Source: a bacterium (GTDB taxonomy: Bacteria > Vulcanimicrobiota > Vulcanimicrobiia > Vulcanimicrobiales > Vulcanimicrobiaceae). Taken from it: a stretch of 39,887 nt of DNA. Below the pieces are notes generated by a model. That model saw only the letters and a program-made list of their open reading frames with translations, was not told the origin of the DNA and ran no database searches. A program made the position numbers and the translations under genes. Below, piece after piece: positions 11,295-19,549 of this stretch. The stretch covers positions 1 through 39,887 of the forward strand of contig JAJZVP010000006.1 of NCBI GenBank assembly GCA_021845615.1, in the 5' to 3' direction. How positions within the stretch are numbered: the first letter of the stretch is position 1; each line of letters opens with the position of its first letter.

Positions 11295-12437
11295 TTATGT
11301 TAGCACCTCGGCCATACGACCGGCGTCGCGAGCGAACTCGATCTCCATGGCGATGCGTTCGCCGACGGAGAGATCGCGTCCCCAACGATAGGACGAATAC
11401 GGAGTGAAACGAGTCCCCGGCGAACCCGGAATGCGCAACGAGACGTCGTAGCACACGAACTCTTTCGGCGGGCCGGCGACGATGGCACACTGCAGCGCAA
11501 AGGGGCCGATCGTCCCCGGAGGGAGTGCTTCGCGCGCCGCAGCGACGAAGCGCTCGCCCATGCCGAACGCCGATTCGAGCGTCGATTCCGTGAGCGTCGC
11601 GGCGATGTGTCCCGCCTCTTCCAGGCGCATCGGGACGTCGCGCAGCTGCTCGTAGACCGAGGGCGGCACGTTACGAAATCCTTCGAGGTTGGTCTGCCGC
11701 CGAGTATCGGTGCCGAGCAATTCCAATTCTCCGAGGATCGGCGAATAAAAGAAATTCAGGTTGACGGAGGGACCGAGCGCGAATTCCTCGATCACCGCCC
11801 CGGCGAGCCCGCTCTCGTCGAGAATGCCGTCGGCGATGAGTCGCGCGCTGACCTCGCGATACTGTTGCGGGCTCGCGCAGAGAAAGAAGGCACGCTCGAA
11901 ACGCACGCGCGCGTGCGGAGCCTTCACCATGACGAGCCGATCGATCTCCTCCGGCGACGTAAACTGACGGGGATGCCGAATGCCCGCCTTGGCCAACAGT
12001 TCGTACTGGTTTCCGGCCTCGTCGCGCTCCTCGGCTCGAAGGAGGTAACGGTTTCCGAAAAACGGCACCAGCATGCGCTTCTCGATCTCGTCGTAGCTAT
12101 AACGCTGGTGCAGGTAGACTTCGAACGAGCGATTCGCGCAAAAAATGACGTTCCGCGCAAGGAGCTCGCGCTGCACGCGCTCGTCGAGCAGATCGGCAAA
12201 GGCATCGAGCTCGATCGTCTCGTCGACGCACCCGCGCGGAATCGGCGACTCGCGGCGCCGAAAGTGCTCGGTGTAGGTTCGTTCGCGCCCCTTCGCCGTG
12301 ACGACCAAATTCCGAAAGCCGCGCATTCGCGCCCCCGCTGCGACCTCGAGCGCCGAATGGCTTCCGATCGAGCATATCGTCAACGCGTCGAGATCGTAGC
12401 CTCGTAACGTCTCTTCGACCGAGGTAAAGCTCGCCAT
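11295..12437 (-). CDS. PurP-like protein, divergent paralog (ATP-grasp, DUF1297-type)
   Basis: IGSHSALEVAAGA, VPFFGNRYLLRAEE, NFFYSPILGELELLGTDTRRQTNLEG, PPGTIGPFALQCA resemble archaeal PurP; the VPHGS and Gly-rich KFPGARGGRGYF equivalents are degraded (FCANRS, KAPHARVRFERAFF). Confidence 0.82.
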   Translation of the reverse strand: MASFTSVEETLRGYDLDALTICSIGSHSALEVAAGARMRGFRNLVVTAKGRERTYTEHFRRRESPIPRGCVDETIELDAFADLLDERVQRELLARNVIFCANRSFEVYLHQRYSYDEIEKRMLVPFFGNRYLLRAEERDEAGNQYELLAKAGIRHPRQFTSPEEIDRLVMVKAPHARVRFERAFFLCASPQQYREVSARLIADGILDESGLAGAVIEEFALGPSVNLNFFYSPILGELELLGTDTRRQTNLEGFRNVPPSVYEQLRDVPMRLEEAGHIAATLTESTLESAFGMGERFVAAAREALPPGTIGPFALQCAIVAGPPKEFVCYDVSLRIPGSPGTRFTPYSSYRWGRDLSVGERIAMEIEFARDAGRMAEVLT

Positions 12438-12440
12438 CGG

Positions 12441-13463
12441 CTAGAGCACGCTCGAGTCGTCGAGGACCGCGCGCAGGTTCGAAGAGAGCAACGCGTTTTT
12501 AATTTCCCGTGCGATGCGCCGCCCGGTCGACATCGGCTCGGAGTAGTGGAGGTACGAGTATGGGGAGCCGTCGATAAACAGGTTGCTCCCCGCAACGATA
12601 CGCGCCGAAATTTCCATGATGTAAAAATGCATATCGGGCGTGATGATGGTTTCGATACAGAACGCCCCAAACAGTCCCTTCGGCCCGCAAATTTCCTTGC
12701 TGACGCGAACGACGTTGTCGCCCATTTCGAGCGCCTCGGCGAGCATCGATTCGCGTAGGCTAACCGGCGAATTCCCGACGACGACGTAGGATGGATCGAC
12801 GTCCATTCCCTCTTGTGCCGCTGCAGGGATGCGCCCCAGCGAGTCCACGTTCGTTTCGTAGCGACGGTCCATCGACATGATTTCGAGCTCGCCGGAGAGC
12901 GGCGAGTAAAAATAATGGATGTAGAGCGGCACGCCGATGATATATTCTTGAATCGTATATTGAGCTTTGAGCGAACCCGCCCGCTCCTCGAAATCGGCGG
13001 CGTCACGGATGAACATATATCCCTTGCCGCCGGCGGCTCCATACAATTTGACGATGACCGGCCGGTCGATCTCCGCGCCGCTCTTGAATTGTCTCGGCAG
13101 GCGTAACCCCGCTCGCGTCAGCCAATCGCGCTGCAACTCGCGGCTCGCCTCCCAATCGAGTACCGCTTTATTCCCGAAGTAGGGAATCGTCATCTTCTTA
13201 TGCTCTTCGGGCGAGAGATAGGCGACGAAGGATCCGTGCGGAACGACGATCGCCTTTCGCGCTTGCAGCTCCTCGAAGAGGGTCGGGAAGGCCGAGTACG
13301 ACGGGAGCACGATGACCTCGTCGACAAAGCGAAACGATCGATAGAGTCGTTCGGTTTGAGGATTGGTGATCGCCAACGTGCGAAAACCTTCGTCGCGCGC
13401 CCCTTTCAGAATCTGAAGAGCGGAGTGCGAGCCCAAGGTCGCGATGGTATAGTGCCGATTCAT
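12441..13463 (-). CDS. purP: Formate-dependent FAICAR synthetase, archaeal-type PurP
   Basis: TLGSHSALQILKGARDEGF, VVPHGSFVAYL, PYFGNKAVLDWE, KLYGAAGGKGYMF, HYFYSPLSGELEIMSMDRRYETNVDSLGRIPA, MEISARIVAGSN match the recalled Methanocaldococcus PurP pattern. Confidence 0.92.
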   Translation of the reverse strand: MNRHYTIATLGSHSALQILKGARDEGFRTLAITNPQTERLYRSFRFVDEVIVLPSYSAFPTLFEELQARKAIVVPHGSFVAYLSPEEHKKMTIPYFGNKAVLDWEASRELQRDWLTRAGLRLPRQFKSGAEIDRPVIVKLYGAAGGKGYMFIRDAADFEERAGSLKAQYTIQEYIIGVPLYIHYFYSPLSGELEIMSMDRRYETNVDSLGRIPAAAQEGMDVDPSYVVVGNSPVSLRESMLAEALEMGDNVVRVSKEICGPKGLFGAFCIETIITPDMHFYIMEISARIVAGSNLFIDGSPYSYLHYSEPMSTGRRIAREIKNALLSSNLRAVLDDSSVL

Positions 13464-13864
13464 CGGATCGCCCTTTCGATGGCGGGATTACAAAGCAGTC
13501 GAACGCATGCGGCATCGAGCTCGTCGCCGCCGAGCGGTTCGTCGGCGCCGCCGAAGAGCCGCCAACTGACGAGGCGACGCATCGGCGCCGACCGCGGCGC
13601 GTCGAGCATCTCGATCCACACTTCACCCGCGCGCGGCTGCATGCTCGCGAGCCGCTCGAGGCGATGTTTGTTGGGGTTGAAAAGCGTTTCGTCGCGCTCG
13701 ATGCGCTCGCGCAACGTTTCGTTACCTTCGTCGCCGTTAAAGACGAGCACGTCGGCGCGTCGAACGTGCGCGACGGCGATACCAAGGCGTTGGAGCGCCC
13801 GCATCGCGGTGTAAGCTTCGTTATCGGGGATTTTCAACGCAACCGCAAATGCCCGTTCGCCCAT
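13460..13864 (-). CDS. PurS-like FGAM synthetase small subunit, enlarged (134 aa)
   Basis: Lies between purQ and purP; N-terminal AFAVALKIPDNEAYTAMRALQRLGIAVAHVRRADVLVF and C-terminal DAACVRLLCNPAIERAI resemble PurS ends; TAATG coupling to purQ and ATGA to purP. Confidence 0.6.
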   Translation of the reverse strand: MGERAFAVALKIPDNEAYTAMRALQRLGIAVAHVRRADVLVFNGDEGNETLRERIERDETLFNPNKHRLERLASMQPRAGEVWIEMLDAPRSAPMRRLVSWRLFGGADEPLGGDELDAACVRLLCNPAIERAIR

Positions 13865-14631
13865 TACCAACGCTCCAATGCAGTGACGAAGCTTCGGAAC
13901 AGGACGCTCCCTCCCGAAGGAGCGAGAACATCCGCACCTTCGCGCCGATCGAGGTGGTTGAAGTTCCATGCGTCGCGTTCGGGGTGCGGCATGATCGCCA
14001 AGACGTTGCCTTCGCGATTCGTCAGCGCCGCCGCACCGAGCGCCGATCCTTGCGGCGCAAGGTGCGCGTCGGTCGCTCCACGAGCGTCGGCGTAGCGAAA
14101 GACGACGTGCCCGCCGCGCTCGATTTCCTCGAGGTGCGCGGCCGAGGCGGCGAGCCGTCCCTGCCCGTGCGCCGCCCATGCCGGGATGAGTGCGTCCTCC
14201 GGCAGCGCGGCGGCGATCGCGCAGCGTTCTGCCGCAACGGTCCGTCGCAAGAGGACGCGTTCGCAAATGAAATGTCCCTGCGCGTTGTGCGTGAAGGCTG
14301 CCGTCGGTCGGCGAATCTCTCCGCTTCCCGGTACGAGCCCCGCCTCCAACAGAATTTGCGCGCCGTTGCAGATTCCCATGACGAGTTTTCCGGCCTGCGC
14401 CGCTTCGATCACAACGTCGAGCATCGCGTCGTGTGCGGCAATAGCTCCGGCGCGAATGCGGTCTTCGTATGCGAAGCCGCCCGGCAGAACGAATGCATCG
14501 TAATACGCGAGGCTCGCCGATTCGCTCCAATGCACGATCCGCGCGTCGGCTCCGCAATCGAGCAGCAGATCGCGGGTCTCTTCTTCGGAATTGGTTCCCG
14601 GGAAAACGAGAACCGCTACGCGTGCAGTCAC
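13864..14631 (-). CDS. purQ: FGAM synthetase glutaminase subunit
   Basis: VAVLVFPGTNSEEET, GICNGAQILLEAGLVPG, MPHPERDAW; GTG start overlaps the purL stop (GTGA). Confidence 0.96.
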   Translation of the reverse strand: MTARVAVLVFPGTNSEEETRDLLLDCGADARIVHWSESASLAYYDAFVLPGGFAYEDRIRAGAIAAHDAMLDVVIEAAQAGKLVMGICNGAQILLEAGLVPGSGEIRRPTAAFTHNAQGHFICERVLLRRTVAAERCAIAAALPEDALIPAWAAHGQGRLAASAAHLEEIERGGHVVFRYADARGATDAHLAPQGSALGAAALTNREGNVLAIMPHPERDAWNFNHLDRREGADVLAPSGGSVLFRSFVTALERW

Positions 14632-16934
14632 GGAAAGAGCTCCTGGAGCGGGCGCGACCAACTGCGGTGGAGATCGTCGATCTCCCACGCGTCATCGTCG
14701 AAGGCGAGGATCGGTTGCGGGATCGTCGTGCCGATCTCACGCACGCTCTCCAAGGCACCGGCGAGTTCTTCGAAGCGATCGACGTCGCGCTCTGCGACTT
14801 CGACGACGATCCCGCCCCATTCGCCGAAGAGCGATTCGTAGCGTCCAACGTTCGACCACCCTGCGAGGCCGTCGAGTTCGATGCCGATCGCCGCTCGCTG
14901 CGCCGGATAGCAGGCAAAACTCATCTCGGCGAGCGTCACGAGCAAGCCCCCGTCGGAGATATCGTGCGCGCTGCGAAGGAGCCCCGCACGCGCCGCAGCG
15001 AGGAGGAAGCGGTGCTCGGCGAGCACGCGCTCGAAATCGATAGCGGGCACTCCTTCGTCGCGCAGCGACAGGAGCGCGGCGAGCACGCTCCCACCGAGCG
15101 CGCGCTGCGTTTCACCGACGAGATAGAGCCGCGAGCCGACCTCTTTCAGCGCGAGCGTCACGCACTGCGAAACGTCGGTGAGACGCCCGAGGCAGGCAAC
15201 GATCGGCGAGGCCGGGATCGCATGGCCGTCGCTCGCCGCATTATAGAGACTCACGTTCCCCGATACGTAGGCGAGCCCCAAGGCGCGCGCCGATCGCGCG
15301 AGGCCGTCGATTCCCGCGACGAGTTCGCCGAATTGTCTAGCGTCGCGCGGGCTTCCGTAATTGAGACAATCGGTAAGGCCGATCGGTTCGGCTCCGACGG
15401 CGACGACGTTGCGCACCGCTTCGTAGACCGCGTGTTCGGCGGCTCGCTCCGGGTCGATCCGTCCGATGCGCGGATTGCCGTCGACGCTCAATGCAAACGC
15501 GAGCTGCGAACCGCGTATCGGTGCGAGGACGCCGGCGTCGGCCTCGCCGCGCGGGATCACGGTGCGCCCGCGAACGACGGCGTCGTAATGACGGAAGAGC
15601 GGAGCCCGCGAGCAGACGTCGCGGTGGGCGAGGGTCGCGTGGAGCACATCGTCGAGCGTCCGTTCGCAGGCGAGGTCGTGCTCCCGCCGTTCCCTCGGAG
15701 GAGCGGGCGGCTGTGCCGGAAGCGTATCGCGCACCGTCCCGGTCAGAAAATCGATCGGAACGTCCATCACGAGTTCGCCGCGATGGCGCAACTGATAGCG
15801 TTGCGCGGCGGTCGCACGGCCGATACGAACGGCACGCGCATTCTGGGCGACCTGCGGCAACGAGAACTCTTCGTTATAGATGCGCTCGACCTCGTCGACG
15901 ATCTCCTCGGGTAGCGCCCAAAGCAGCCGTTCCTGCGTCTCGCCGACGGCGATAACTTCGGGGAGCAGGTGGTCGACCGCGACGTTCACGGTGTCGAGAT
16001 CGAGCTCCGCACCGAAACCGCCCGCGCTGCATAATTCCGCCGAACATCCCATAATGCCGCCGGCACCGAGATCTTTAAAGCCGACCTCGATCCCGCGCGC
16101 TCGGAGCATCGAGAAGACGCGATAGCTGGCGCGCATGATGACGTTTTTCAGGAATGGGTCGGGAACCTGAACCGCGCCTTTATTGCTCTCCGTCTCTCGC
16201 GCGTCGAGCGCGACCGAGGAGAACGAAGCCCCCCCGAAACCGCTCGCATCGGTCGCCTTCCCGACGAGCAGCAACACGAAATCCGCTCCATGTTTCGGCA
16301 CGCGCGAATGGATGATCTGCGACTCTTTTACGAGTCCGAGCGCGACCACGTTGACGAGGACGTTATCGTCGAACTCCGGATCGAAATAACAATCGCCCGC
16401 AAGGTTGGGAACCCCGATGGCGTTCCCGTACGCAGCGATGCCGTCGACGACGCCGCGCGCCACCGCGCGTTGATGCGGGCGGGCGGGATCGACGTTGCCG
16501 AAGCGCAGCGGGTCGGCGACGGCGACGACCTCGGCGCCCATGCAGAGGACGTCGCGCACGATGCCGCCGATACCGGTCGCAGCCCCCTCGAACGGCACGA
16601 CCTGCGATGGGTGATTGTGCGACTCGTGAGCGATGACGATTCCATACCGTTCGCCCTCGTGTTCGCCGAGATGCAAGATGCCCGCATCCTCCGCCGGGCC
16701 GAGCACGACGTCGGCGCCCTTCGTCGGAAGGTGGGATAAGAGCGCGCGACTCGATTTATACGAGCAATGCTCGCTCCACTGAGCGTCGAACGCGTAAAGT
16801 TCGACCAAACTCGGCGCTCGCCCGAGGCGATCCGCGATGCCGCGCAGTTCGTCGACGCGCAAGGCGAGCCCCAATGCATCGGCACGCGCGCGCAGAGTTT
16901 CGTCGTCGAGTTCGGCGACGGCTAAATCACGCAA
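14628..16934 (-). CDS. purL: FGAM synthetase large subunit (small PurL type)
   Basis: WSEHCSYKSSRALL, AHESHNHPSQVVPFEGAATGIGGIVRDVLCMGA, DLGAGGIMGCSAE; probable TTG start. Confidence 0.97.
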   Translation of the reverse strand: MRDLAVAELDDETLRARADALGLALRVDELRGIADRLGRAPSLVELYAFDAQWSEHCSYKSSRALLSHLPTKGADVVLGPAEDAGILHLGEHEGERYGIVIAHESHNHPSQVVPFEGAATGIGGIVRDVLCMGAEVVAVADPLRFGNVDPARPHQRAVARGVVDGIAAYGNAIGVPNLAGDCYFDPEFDDNVLVNVVALGLVKESQIIHSRVPKHGADFVLLLVGKATDASGFGGASFSSVALDARETESNKGAVQVPDPFLKNVIMRASYRVFSMLRARGIEVGFKDLGAGGIMGCSAELCSAGGFGAELDLDTVNVAVDHLLPEVIAVGETQERLLWALPEEIVDEVERIYNEEFSLPQVAQNARAVRIGRATAAQRYQLRHRGELVMDVPIDFLTGTVRDTLPAQPPAPPRERREHDLACERTLDDVLHATLAHRDVCSRAPLFRHYDAVVRGRTVIPRGEADAGVLAPIRGSQLAFALSVDGNPRIGRIDPERAAEHAVYEAVRNVVAVGAEPIGLTDCLNYGSPRDARQFGELVAGIDGLARSARALGLAYVSGNVSLYNAASDGHAIPASPIVACLGRLTDVSQCVTLALKEVGSRLYLVGETQRALGGSVLAALLSLRDEGVPAIDFERVLAEHRFLLAAARAGLLRSAHDISDGGLLVTLAEMSFACYPAQRAAIGIELDGLAGWSNVGRYESLFGEWGGIVVEVAERDVDRFEELAGALESVREIGTTIPQPILAFDDDAWEIDDLHRSWSRPLQELFP

Positions 16935-18117
16935 TGACGGCTCCCGGCGGCAATTGTTGTTGGAGGAGCGCGTCGACGCGCAGCATTTCGGAGCGCGCGT
17001 TCGACTGAGCGAGCATCACGCGTCCGAACATCGCCGAGTCGTCGATCGCCAGTAATTTCGCACAGGCGAGCGCGATGCGGTGCGGTTCGTCGTTTCCGTC
17101 GATGACCGGCGAGCTCGCGCTGCCGTCGAGGGTGGCGCGCAGCGTGTGGTCGCCGATCGCCACGAAGATCGGCCGGGCGAAGCCCGCCTCGATCTGCGAC
17201 ACGATCTGCAAGACGTAGCCCGGCGTCACCGTGACGCTGGCGAGATGGCGCGCCGTCGGAATACCGAAGGAATGGAGCGCGGTCGCGACTTCGTTCGCTC
17301 GGTCGACCATCTGCGCATCGTCGACGAAGATCGCCGCGACTCCAGGGCGCATCGCCGGAAAATTGCCGACGAAATCGGCGACCTGTTCGTAGGCGGCCTT
17401 CACGCGGGCGAGCCCCGCCGCATCGACCGGATCGAGATTGCGGTAGATCTGCTTATCGAGCATCTGATCTTCGTGTCCGTGCCGCCAGATGCGCCACGAA
17501 TCGTTGTCGATAACGTCGGCGATCACGAGCTGCCCTTGGTTCTCACCGCCGATCAATCGGCCGAACTCCACCTTCATATCGACGAGCAAGACGTCGCGAT
17601 GGCGCCAGGCGTGGGCGAGAATTTCGAAGGTCAACCGAGCGATCTCGCTCATCGCTCCAATTTCGTTGGGCGAAGCGATCCCGCGTGCGGCGATCTCCTC
17701 GGGGGTAATGAGCGGATCGTGATTTGCATCGTCCTTGAGGAAAAATTCCGTCACCCGCGGCACCAGGATCGCCCCGCGCTGGAGCCCCGTATGACGGCGC
17801 ACGAACGAGCCCGCCGCGACGCCGCGCACGACCACTTCCAACGGAATCATCGAGCAGCGGCGCACCAACATTTCGTTGTCGTCGTCGTCCTCGCCACCGT
17901 TGAGAAAATGCGTCGGCAATCCGCAGAGATTGAGCAACCGGAAGACGCGCGAGGTGGTCTGAGCGGCGAGCCGCCCTTTGCCGGGGATTTCGTCGCGCCG
18001 CGCGCCGTCGCCGGCGGTAATCGCATCGCCCTGCGCGACGACGAGTTGGTCGGGAGAACTCGGGACTTCGTAGAGAACTTTGGTCTTGCCCCGTGCGATC
18101 TCGATCCCTTTATCCAC
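16927..18117 (-). CDS. purC: SAICAR synthetase fused to a C-terminal PurE/AIR-carboxylase-like domain
   Basis: PurC: ARGKTKVLYEVP, VEVVVRGVAAGSF, VDMKVEFGR; C-terminal about 140 aa aligns loosely with the PAICS AIR-carboxylase half; GTG start with GGAGGA upstream. Confidence 0.9.
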   Translation of the reverse strand: MDKGIEIARGKTKVLYEVPSSPDQLVVAQGDAITAGDGARRDEIPGKGRLAAQTTSRVFRLLNLCGLPTHFLNGGEDDDDNEMLVRRCSMIPLEVVVRGVAAGSFVRRHTGLQRGAILVPRVTEFFLKDDANHDPLITPEEIAARGIASPNEIGAMSEIARLTFEILAHAWRHRDVLLVDMKVEFGRLIGGENQGQLVIADVIDNDSWRIWRHGHEDQMLDKQIYRNLDPVDAAGLARVKAAYEQVADFVGNFPAMRPGVAAIFVDDAQMVDRANEVATALHSFGIPTARHLASVTVTPGYVLQIVSQIEAGFARPIFVAIGDHTLRATLDGSASSPVIDGNDEPHRIALACAKLLAIDDSAMFGRVMLAQSNARSEMLRVDALLQQQLPPGAVIA

Positions 18118-19549
18118 GTTCTTCCTCCGCCCGATGTTCGGCGACGATGCGTTGCTGCGGGAAATCCGGCAATGCGGCGATCTGCGCCGCAACCATGCGC
18201 GCGCGCCGCGCCGCGAGCCCGACATGTCCCGTGGGATCGAGCGAGCGACGGATCTCGGCGGGATCGATCAGCGCGGTCAACGCCGGATCGCCGGCGAGTA
18301 ACCCCGCGAGCGGATTATCCTCGCCTCGGGCGAGCGCGTCCCACGCCTCCATCGCGCGTCCGCGCAGCGTTTCGTGCAACTCCTGACGGTCGCCGCCGGC
18401 GCGCGCGGCTTCCATCATCACCCGCTCGGTACCCGCAAACGGACCGTAGGTACGGACGTTCTGTGCGATGCGCCGTTCGTCGATGCGCAGCCCGCGCACC
18501 ACGCGCAGCGCGAGCGAGAGCAACTCGTCGACGCAGAGCAGCGCTTCGGGGATCGTGGTGCGTCGATTCGCACTATCGTCGAGCGTGCGCTCGAGGTAAT
18601 TCGTCGCGGCGTTCTGCCACGCGACGTCGGCGTATGCCGGCAAGAGCCGCGCGAGCGAATCGATCCGTTCGCAAAGAATCGGATTGCGCTTGAACGGCAT
18701 CGCGCTGCTGCCGACCTGCGCGCTTCCGAAGGGTTCGGCGAGCTCGCCGAACGGCGGCGCGCTGAGAATGCGCATATCGGCAGCGAACTTCGAAAGCGAT
18801 GTGCCGATGCCGGCGAGAGCGGCGAGCAACAGGTAATCGAGTTTGCGCGTGTAGGTTTGCGTGCTCGCCGCTCGCGCTTCGAGCCCGAAATGCTCGAGCA
18901 CCTCGCGCTCGAGATCGATCGACGCGCCGGTACCGCCGAGCAATTGTTCGTAGGACGCGGAGGTCCCGACGGCGCCGCGCAATCCCTTCGTCGTCATCTG
19001 CGCGAAGACGTGGCGGAGGTTCGCGTCGTCGATAAGGAGATCTTGGGCGTAGATCGCAAAGCGGTAGCCCAGCGTCGTCGGCTCCGCCGGCTGCAAGTGC
19101 GTGAACGCCATGCAGAGGCGATCGGCCTGCGCCTCAATCCGTTCGGCGAACGCCGCGAGCAACTCGTGTAAGCGTTCCCCGATACTGGAGAGCGCGCGGC
19201 GGATGCGATAGGTTTCGACCGTATCCTCGATGTCCATCGAGGTCGCGCCGAGATGGAGCTTGCCGCCGCCGATACGCGCCTGCGACGCGTAGACGCGGAT
19301 CTCGGCCATGAGATCGTGGTGGATCGAGCGCTCGATCTCTAATGCCGCCTCGATATCGATCTCATCGGCATGCGCGCGCAGGTCGGCGAGCTCCGCCTCG
19401 CTGACGAATCCGTGCTTCGATTGGGCTTGGGCGAGCGCGATCCAAACCTCGCGCCAGAGCCGCCGCCGCGTTCGCTCCGAGAAGAGCGAGCGCACGTCCT
19501 TGCGACCGTACCTCCAAGAGAACGGCGAAGCATAACTGGAGTGATCCAT
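18110..19549 (-). CDS. purB: Adenylosuccinate lyase
   Basis: Fumarase/lyase signature VGSSAMPFKRNPILCERI; MDHSSYASPFSWRYG start at 19549, so the 840-aa ORF is over-extended. Confidence 0.95.
   Translation of the reverse strand: MDHSSYASPFSWRYGRKDVRSLFSERTRRRLWREVWIALAQAQSKHGFVSEAELADLRAHADEIDIEAALEIERSIHHDLMAEIRVYASQARIGGGKLHLGATSMDIEDTVETYRIRRALSSIGERLHELLAAFAERIEAQADRLCMAFTHLQPAEPTTLGYRFAIYAQDLLIDDANLRHVFAQMTTKGLRGAVGTSASYEQLLGGTGASIDLEREVLEHFGLEARAASTQTYTRKLDYLLLAALAGIGTSLSKFAADMRILSAPPFGELAEPFGSAQVGSSAMPFKRNPILCERIDSLARLLPAYADVAWQNAATNYLERTLDDSANRRTTIPEALLCVDELLSLALRVVRGLRIDERRIAQNVRTYGPFAGTERVMMEAARAGGDRQELHETLRGRAMEAWDALARGEDNPLAGLLAGDPALTALIDPAEIRRSLDPTGHVGLAARRARMVAAQIAALPDFPQQRIVAEHRAEEERG

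Follow-up and report, generated by a model that had tools for sequence, protein, structure and literature searches.

A PAICS-like PurC-PurE fusion of Vulcanimicrobiaceae in which a probably noncatalytic PurE half is retained under purifying selection

A PurC-PurE fusion within a purine gene cluster

The window, i.e., the whole stretch of DNA analyzed here (39,887 nucleotides; contig JAJZVP010000006.1, positions 1 to 39,887), carries a purine cluster in which a minus-strand fusion gene lies between purB, encoding adenylosuccinate lyase (18110..19534), and purL (14628..16934, with a TTG start), both on that strand, with 8-nt overlaps of purB with the fusion start and of purL with the fusion stop. 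The fusion open reading frame runs from a GTG start at 18117 to a stop at 16927 and encodes 396 aa; this start is backed by the relatives, which have ATG or GTG at the identical codon. Its first half (17353..18117, residues 1-255) is the SAICAR synthetase PurC (PF01259, E value of 6.8e-60), and its second half (16927..17352, residues 256-396 plus the stop) has a PurE fold and is probably noncatalytic. The cluster further comprises, on the same strand, purQ downstream of purL (13864..14646), a diverged purS downstream of purQ (13460-13861; TIGR00302 E value of 7e-4 and PF02700 19.9 bits, both below cut-off) and two adjoining purP-like genes (11295-12437 and 12441-13463; DUF1246/DUF1297, with scores below the NCBIfam cut-offs). 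It also includes guaA and purD. PurP is a formate-dependent AICAR ligase best known from archaea; the PurP-like pair sits in this bacterial cluster though the genome encodes a standard PurH (G000:C186:204-1163), and no PurO was found in the window's genome.

Those relatives with named records are metagenome genomes of Candidatus Eremiobacterota/Vulcanimicrobiota. The genomes compared here were assigned to the window's own family (f1), a family of the same order (f2), and a family of the same class (f3), G000 being the window's genome. A PF02700 search of the genomes found PurS in no f1 or f2 genome and gave weak matches in some f3 genomes. Three contigs labeled Rhodospirillales or Acidimicrobiaceae (L103, L105, and L118) also bear the fusion gene, with 62-79% identity to the window protein, and are probably mislabeled or misbinned metagenome contigs.

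Identity and fold of the C-terminal half

Taken alone, the C-terminal half scored weakly as PurE (PF00731, E value of 0.022; TIGR01162, 3.9e-5), below the curated cut-offs, as would a stretch that was not derived from PurE and resembled it by chance. The probability of such a chance resemblance is negligible, and it is refuted by the profile and fold matches. A 42-sequence family profile aligned over its full length with PAICS 4ja0 (profile positions 4-389, E value of 1.7e-95) and, over about positions 256-388, with free PurEs. Moreover, an AlphaFold2 model of the fusion as a single chain (mean pLDDT of 91.5, >90 through most of the PurE half) gave a full-length Foldseek match to the human octameric PAICS 6yb8 (TM of 0.89), and its PurE part also matched the class II PurE of Treponema denticola (3rg8), the top match among stand-alone PurE folds. 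The identical PurC-PurE junction is present with an intact PurE in relatives, and an unbroken series leads from the window protein to the intact PurE of f3. Owing to the profile match, the fold match, and this shared junction, the PurE homology of the C-terminal half is certain despite the weak single-sequence scores. A PAICS-like fusion with PurC and then PurE in one chain had been proposed by a sequence-only reading of the window, and the comparison with profiles, the predicted structure of the C terminus, and the junction in relatives all bear it out. An assembly error or frameshift artifact was rejected, since each of the 10 species of the genus has an open, full-length fusion with no internal stops.

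One active site kept, the other lost

The SAICAR synthetase site has been preserved in the window protein, with 23 of the 24 residues listed for human PAICS (PMC9376930) being identical and Asn43, replaced by Asp37, being the exception. The human AIR carboxylase site was modeled with 18 residues, of which the PurE half keeps only 2, namely Ser301 (here Ser294) and Leu335 (Leu326). The general-base His303 of human PAICS corresponds to Thr296, which lies in SVTVTP (17221..17238, minus strand, residues 294-299), the equivalent of the PurE motif SAHKTP; SAHK has thereby become SVTV, MGSTSD has become VDDAQM, and just the final L of the AGRSNGL stretch remains. The SAHK, MGSxSD, and AGRSN residues expected of a PAICS are accordingly not those of this PurE half. 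In addition, the final substrate loop (CPPxxxxGGMDxLSSLxxPSG, ∼27 aa), which the f2 and f3 fusions carry, is deleted between residues 339 and 344 (17089..17100, minus strand, residues 340-343). Alignment with human PAICS and with relatives thus confirmed the altered motifs pointed out earlier from the sequence (MGSxSD, SAHxxP with its His lost, and AGxxNxLxP) and upheld the claim, made on that basis, that the PurE active site is lost.

Human PAICS no longer complements when its AIR carboxylase His is replaced, and Escherichia coli PurE is inactive with Asn, Gln, or Trp in place of the corresponding His (PMC9376930). Judging from these alignments, the PurE half of the window protein would have no AIR carboxylase activity. 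Continued AIR carboxylase activity through rewired residues appears highly improbable. In its favor, the fold is retained, and the catalytic position is occupied by a His in one f1 subclade (STH/SAH/SSH). Against it, the window protein has lost 16 of the 18 site residues, a deletion in f1 has removed the substrate loop, and an intact free class I PurE occurs together with PurK.

Separate purE-purK and a graded series among relatives

This intact free purE, a search for which had been suggested together with the claim of an inactivated half, is found in the window's genome at G000:C18:6390-6827 (200 bits) and is adjoined by purK (G000:C18:5308-6354). The free PurE is class I-like, and the purE-purK pair (purEK) is not in the fusion's operon but on a separate contig of that genome. 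In f3, the same fusion has intact MGSxxD, SAHKTP, and AGRSNALS and is class II-like, with T. denticola PurE and human PAICS as the best solved relatives of its PurE domain. Neither purK nor a free class I-like purE was found in the f3 genomes, consistent with a class II PurE that works without PurK, a situation that does not hold for the window's genome and f1. In f2, SAQ, SAL, or NAQ replaces SAH in the fusion, the loop is kept, and a separate purE-purK is present. In f1, both the His and the loop of the fusion are lost, with the His being kept in one subclade, and purE-purK is likewise separate. Within that subclade, the fused halves of G016, G023, G024, G025, G026, and G032 have a His (STH/SAH/SSH), with the loop nonetheless deleted.

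Phylogenetic analysis placed fused and free PurE in two clades with 100/100 support; in the same tree, the free PurE of f2 was nested within that of f1, where the E. coli reference also fell, on a long branch. Further PF00731 matches (∼40-60 bits), found in f2, in f3, and in some of the f1 genomes, are for the most part in longer reading frames; they presumably represent LarB and were excluded from the PurE counts. One f1 genome of 96% completeness (G015) was without a free purEK and was rejected as a counterexample: its purEK most likely falls in an assembly gap, because the neighbor gene is cut off where its contig ends (G015:C20:5-259).

Living relatives keep each stage in which one enzyme appears to replace another in a core pathway, i.e., an intact class II-like fusion, a His-less fusion with purEK, a fusion without the site and with purEK, and PurC with purEK. 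Neither this history, in which class I PurE with PurK appears to have taken the place of a fused class II-like PurE, nor the total loss of the domain in one genus (described below) could have been seen from the window alone.

Selection on the probably noncatalytic half

In genomes that retain it, the dead half experiences strong purifying selection. Within the genus, NG86 gave dN/dS values of 0.024 (PurC half) and 0.039 (PurE half), and codon maximum likelihood (ML) gave 0.021 and 0.024, respectively. The corresponding codon ML values were 0.063 and 0.098 across f1 and 0.026 and 0.048 in f2, while the value of 0.011 for the f3 C-terminal half is probably saturated and was not relied on. The dead half is kept in 81 f1 genomes (36 of 37 genera), and G061 is the only one of them whose fusion has an in-frame stop, a picture unlike that of a pseudogene with dN/dS near 1, stops, or frameshifts. 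Seven residues (K354, D360, G365, R366, Q371, R375, and D382) do not vary across f1, f2, and f3 and lie mostly on the conserved C-terminal helix (residues 361-387), with residues 371, 375, and 382 on one face, as might be expected for packing; most catalytic columns of the PurE half are free to vary. The sequence-only reading was thus right about the fusion and the lost active site, but its description of the second domain as decaying does not hold in the sense of a degenerating remnant, given a fold that is kept, dN/dS of 0.02-0.10, retention in nearly every genus, and a helix face that is invariant from intact to dead halves.

The f1 half evolves ∼2 times faster relative to PurC than that of f3 (identity of 52/76% versus 74/78%), and the PurE half of G031 is very diverged. 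Residues R257, R290, F313, and N373 show a conservation within f1 that is absent from f3, which would suit a docking or regulatory module, e.g., a mixed assembly with free PurE/PurK that passes the unstable N5-CAIR/CAIR to PurC, or a nucleotide sensor. The families with the dead half, f1 and f2, are also those with purE-purK. We regard such a module as improbable, however, as F313 and N373 were fixed already in f2, purEK lies outside the fusion's operon (on a separate contig in the window's genome), and one genome that keeps purEK has lost the half.

Natural loss of the half in genus g19

This last genome, G027, belongs to the f1 genus g19 (8 genomes), in which PurC stands alone and the PurE half is completely lost. 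In the seven genomes with a readable gene end, a stop directly after the PurC domain is followed by purL, while in the eighth the gene stops at the contig end; the presence of purEK and the loss of the half were checked individually for G027. PurC of g19 is altered at 3 to 8 sites per genome that are otherwise invariant in f1, compared with 0 to 3 elsewhere, and the changes include Leu64 to Lys, Arg, or Glu, as well as positions 158, 161, 169, and 172, the last four on one helix. The mean identity of G027 PurC is 65.7%, outside the family's 70-79%, whereas that of its PurL is 72.2%, against a family range of 71-78%. These observations point to, but do not prove, a surface of PurC that is covered by the PurE half. 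Since g19 lives without the half, the half is not indispensable. One g19 genome has an additional PurC-PurE copy, interrupted by an in-frame stop, on a 4-kb contig (G106:C9, L155); this copy is 71% identical to the window protein and scores like g7, and the contig is probably a contaminant.

The tolerated loss in g19 and the faster evolution of the half relative to f3 are also what the main rival to a structural role would predict, namely that the half is a passive relic without benefit, the low dN/dS reflecting that it must fold without harming PurC and the retention reflecting that a clean deletion at the junction is rare. We consider this unlikely, considering the retention in 36 genera with dN/dS of <0.1, the helix face that is invariant from f3 to f1, and the change of otherwise invariant PurC sites where the half was lost.

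A proposed structural core and its implications

The reading that we favor, and hold to be probable, is that the protein is a monofunctional SAICAR synthetase whose noncatalytic PurE domain was kept as an assembly or stability core after purEK had taken over carboxylation. The ancestor would have been a bacterial PAICS-type bifunctional enzyme, with a C-terminal class II-like PurE that carboxylated AIR directly to CAIR with CO2. A stand-alone class I purE with purK may then have been acquired in the ancestry of the window's order and have taken over the CAIR step, whereupon the fused PurE would have lost its catalytic His and, in f1, also its nucleotide-binding loops. The fold and the C-terminal helix would have been kept by selection because the half still serves PurC as a core, presumably in a PAICS-like oligomer, and the present protein would be a SAICAR synthetase bearing a PurE pseudoenzyme domain. 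We favor this structural core because of the graded series, the low dN/dS, the invariant helix face, the match to octameric PAICS, and the PurC changes in g19; the absence of the half from g19, its faster evolution than in f3, and the divergence of G031 speak against it.

A bolder version, which we rate as quite improbable, is that the dead domain has become a dedicated noncatalytic core that either recruits the free PurE (class I) and PurK or serves as the binding site for a ligand of the purine pathway, channeling N5-CAIR chemistry to PurC; if true, this would be a metabolon built on a retired enzyme domain. The series makes testable why a domain outlives its own chemistry and amounts to a natural test of the contribution that the PurE part makes to PurC within PAICS. 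Moreover, annotation software would label the protein simply as PurC, or perhaps as bifunctional, and pathway models of these uncultured bacteria could be misled by either label.

Comparison with known systems

The fold and the fusion are already known, and the protein is a variant of PAICS rather than a new type of system. In the open-licence literature searched, we found neither a PurE pseudoenzyme nor a case in which a dead half persists and relatives show its replacement in graded steps. Animal PAICS (human 2h31/6yb8 and invertebrate 4ja0) is a fusion of PurC with a class II PurE, and the window protein resembles it in domain order, SAICAR synthetase site, and full-length fold (TM of 0.85-0.89; 6yb8 and 4ja0 chains A-C). 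Unlike animal PAICS, it has lost the AIR carboxylase site and one loop, and in the window's genome a separate class I PurE plus PurK presumably supplies CAIR. The class II PurE of T. denticola (3rg8) is the best stand-alone match to the intact fused domain of f3 (123 bits); unlike it, the window half has neither the catalytic residues nor the last substrate loop. For the PurE-PurE' tandem of Methanobrevibacter smithii/Methanothermobacter, one proposed possibility is that the divergent PurE' acts purely structurally in assembly (PMC3261824). The window half is similarly a divergent PurE domain with a possible purely structural role, but the methanogen PurE' has another PurE as its fusion partner and is needed for complementation, whereas the half described here is joined to PurC and has been lost in one genus.
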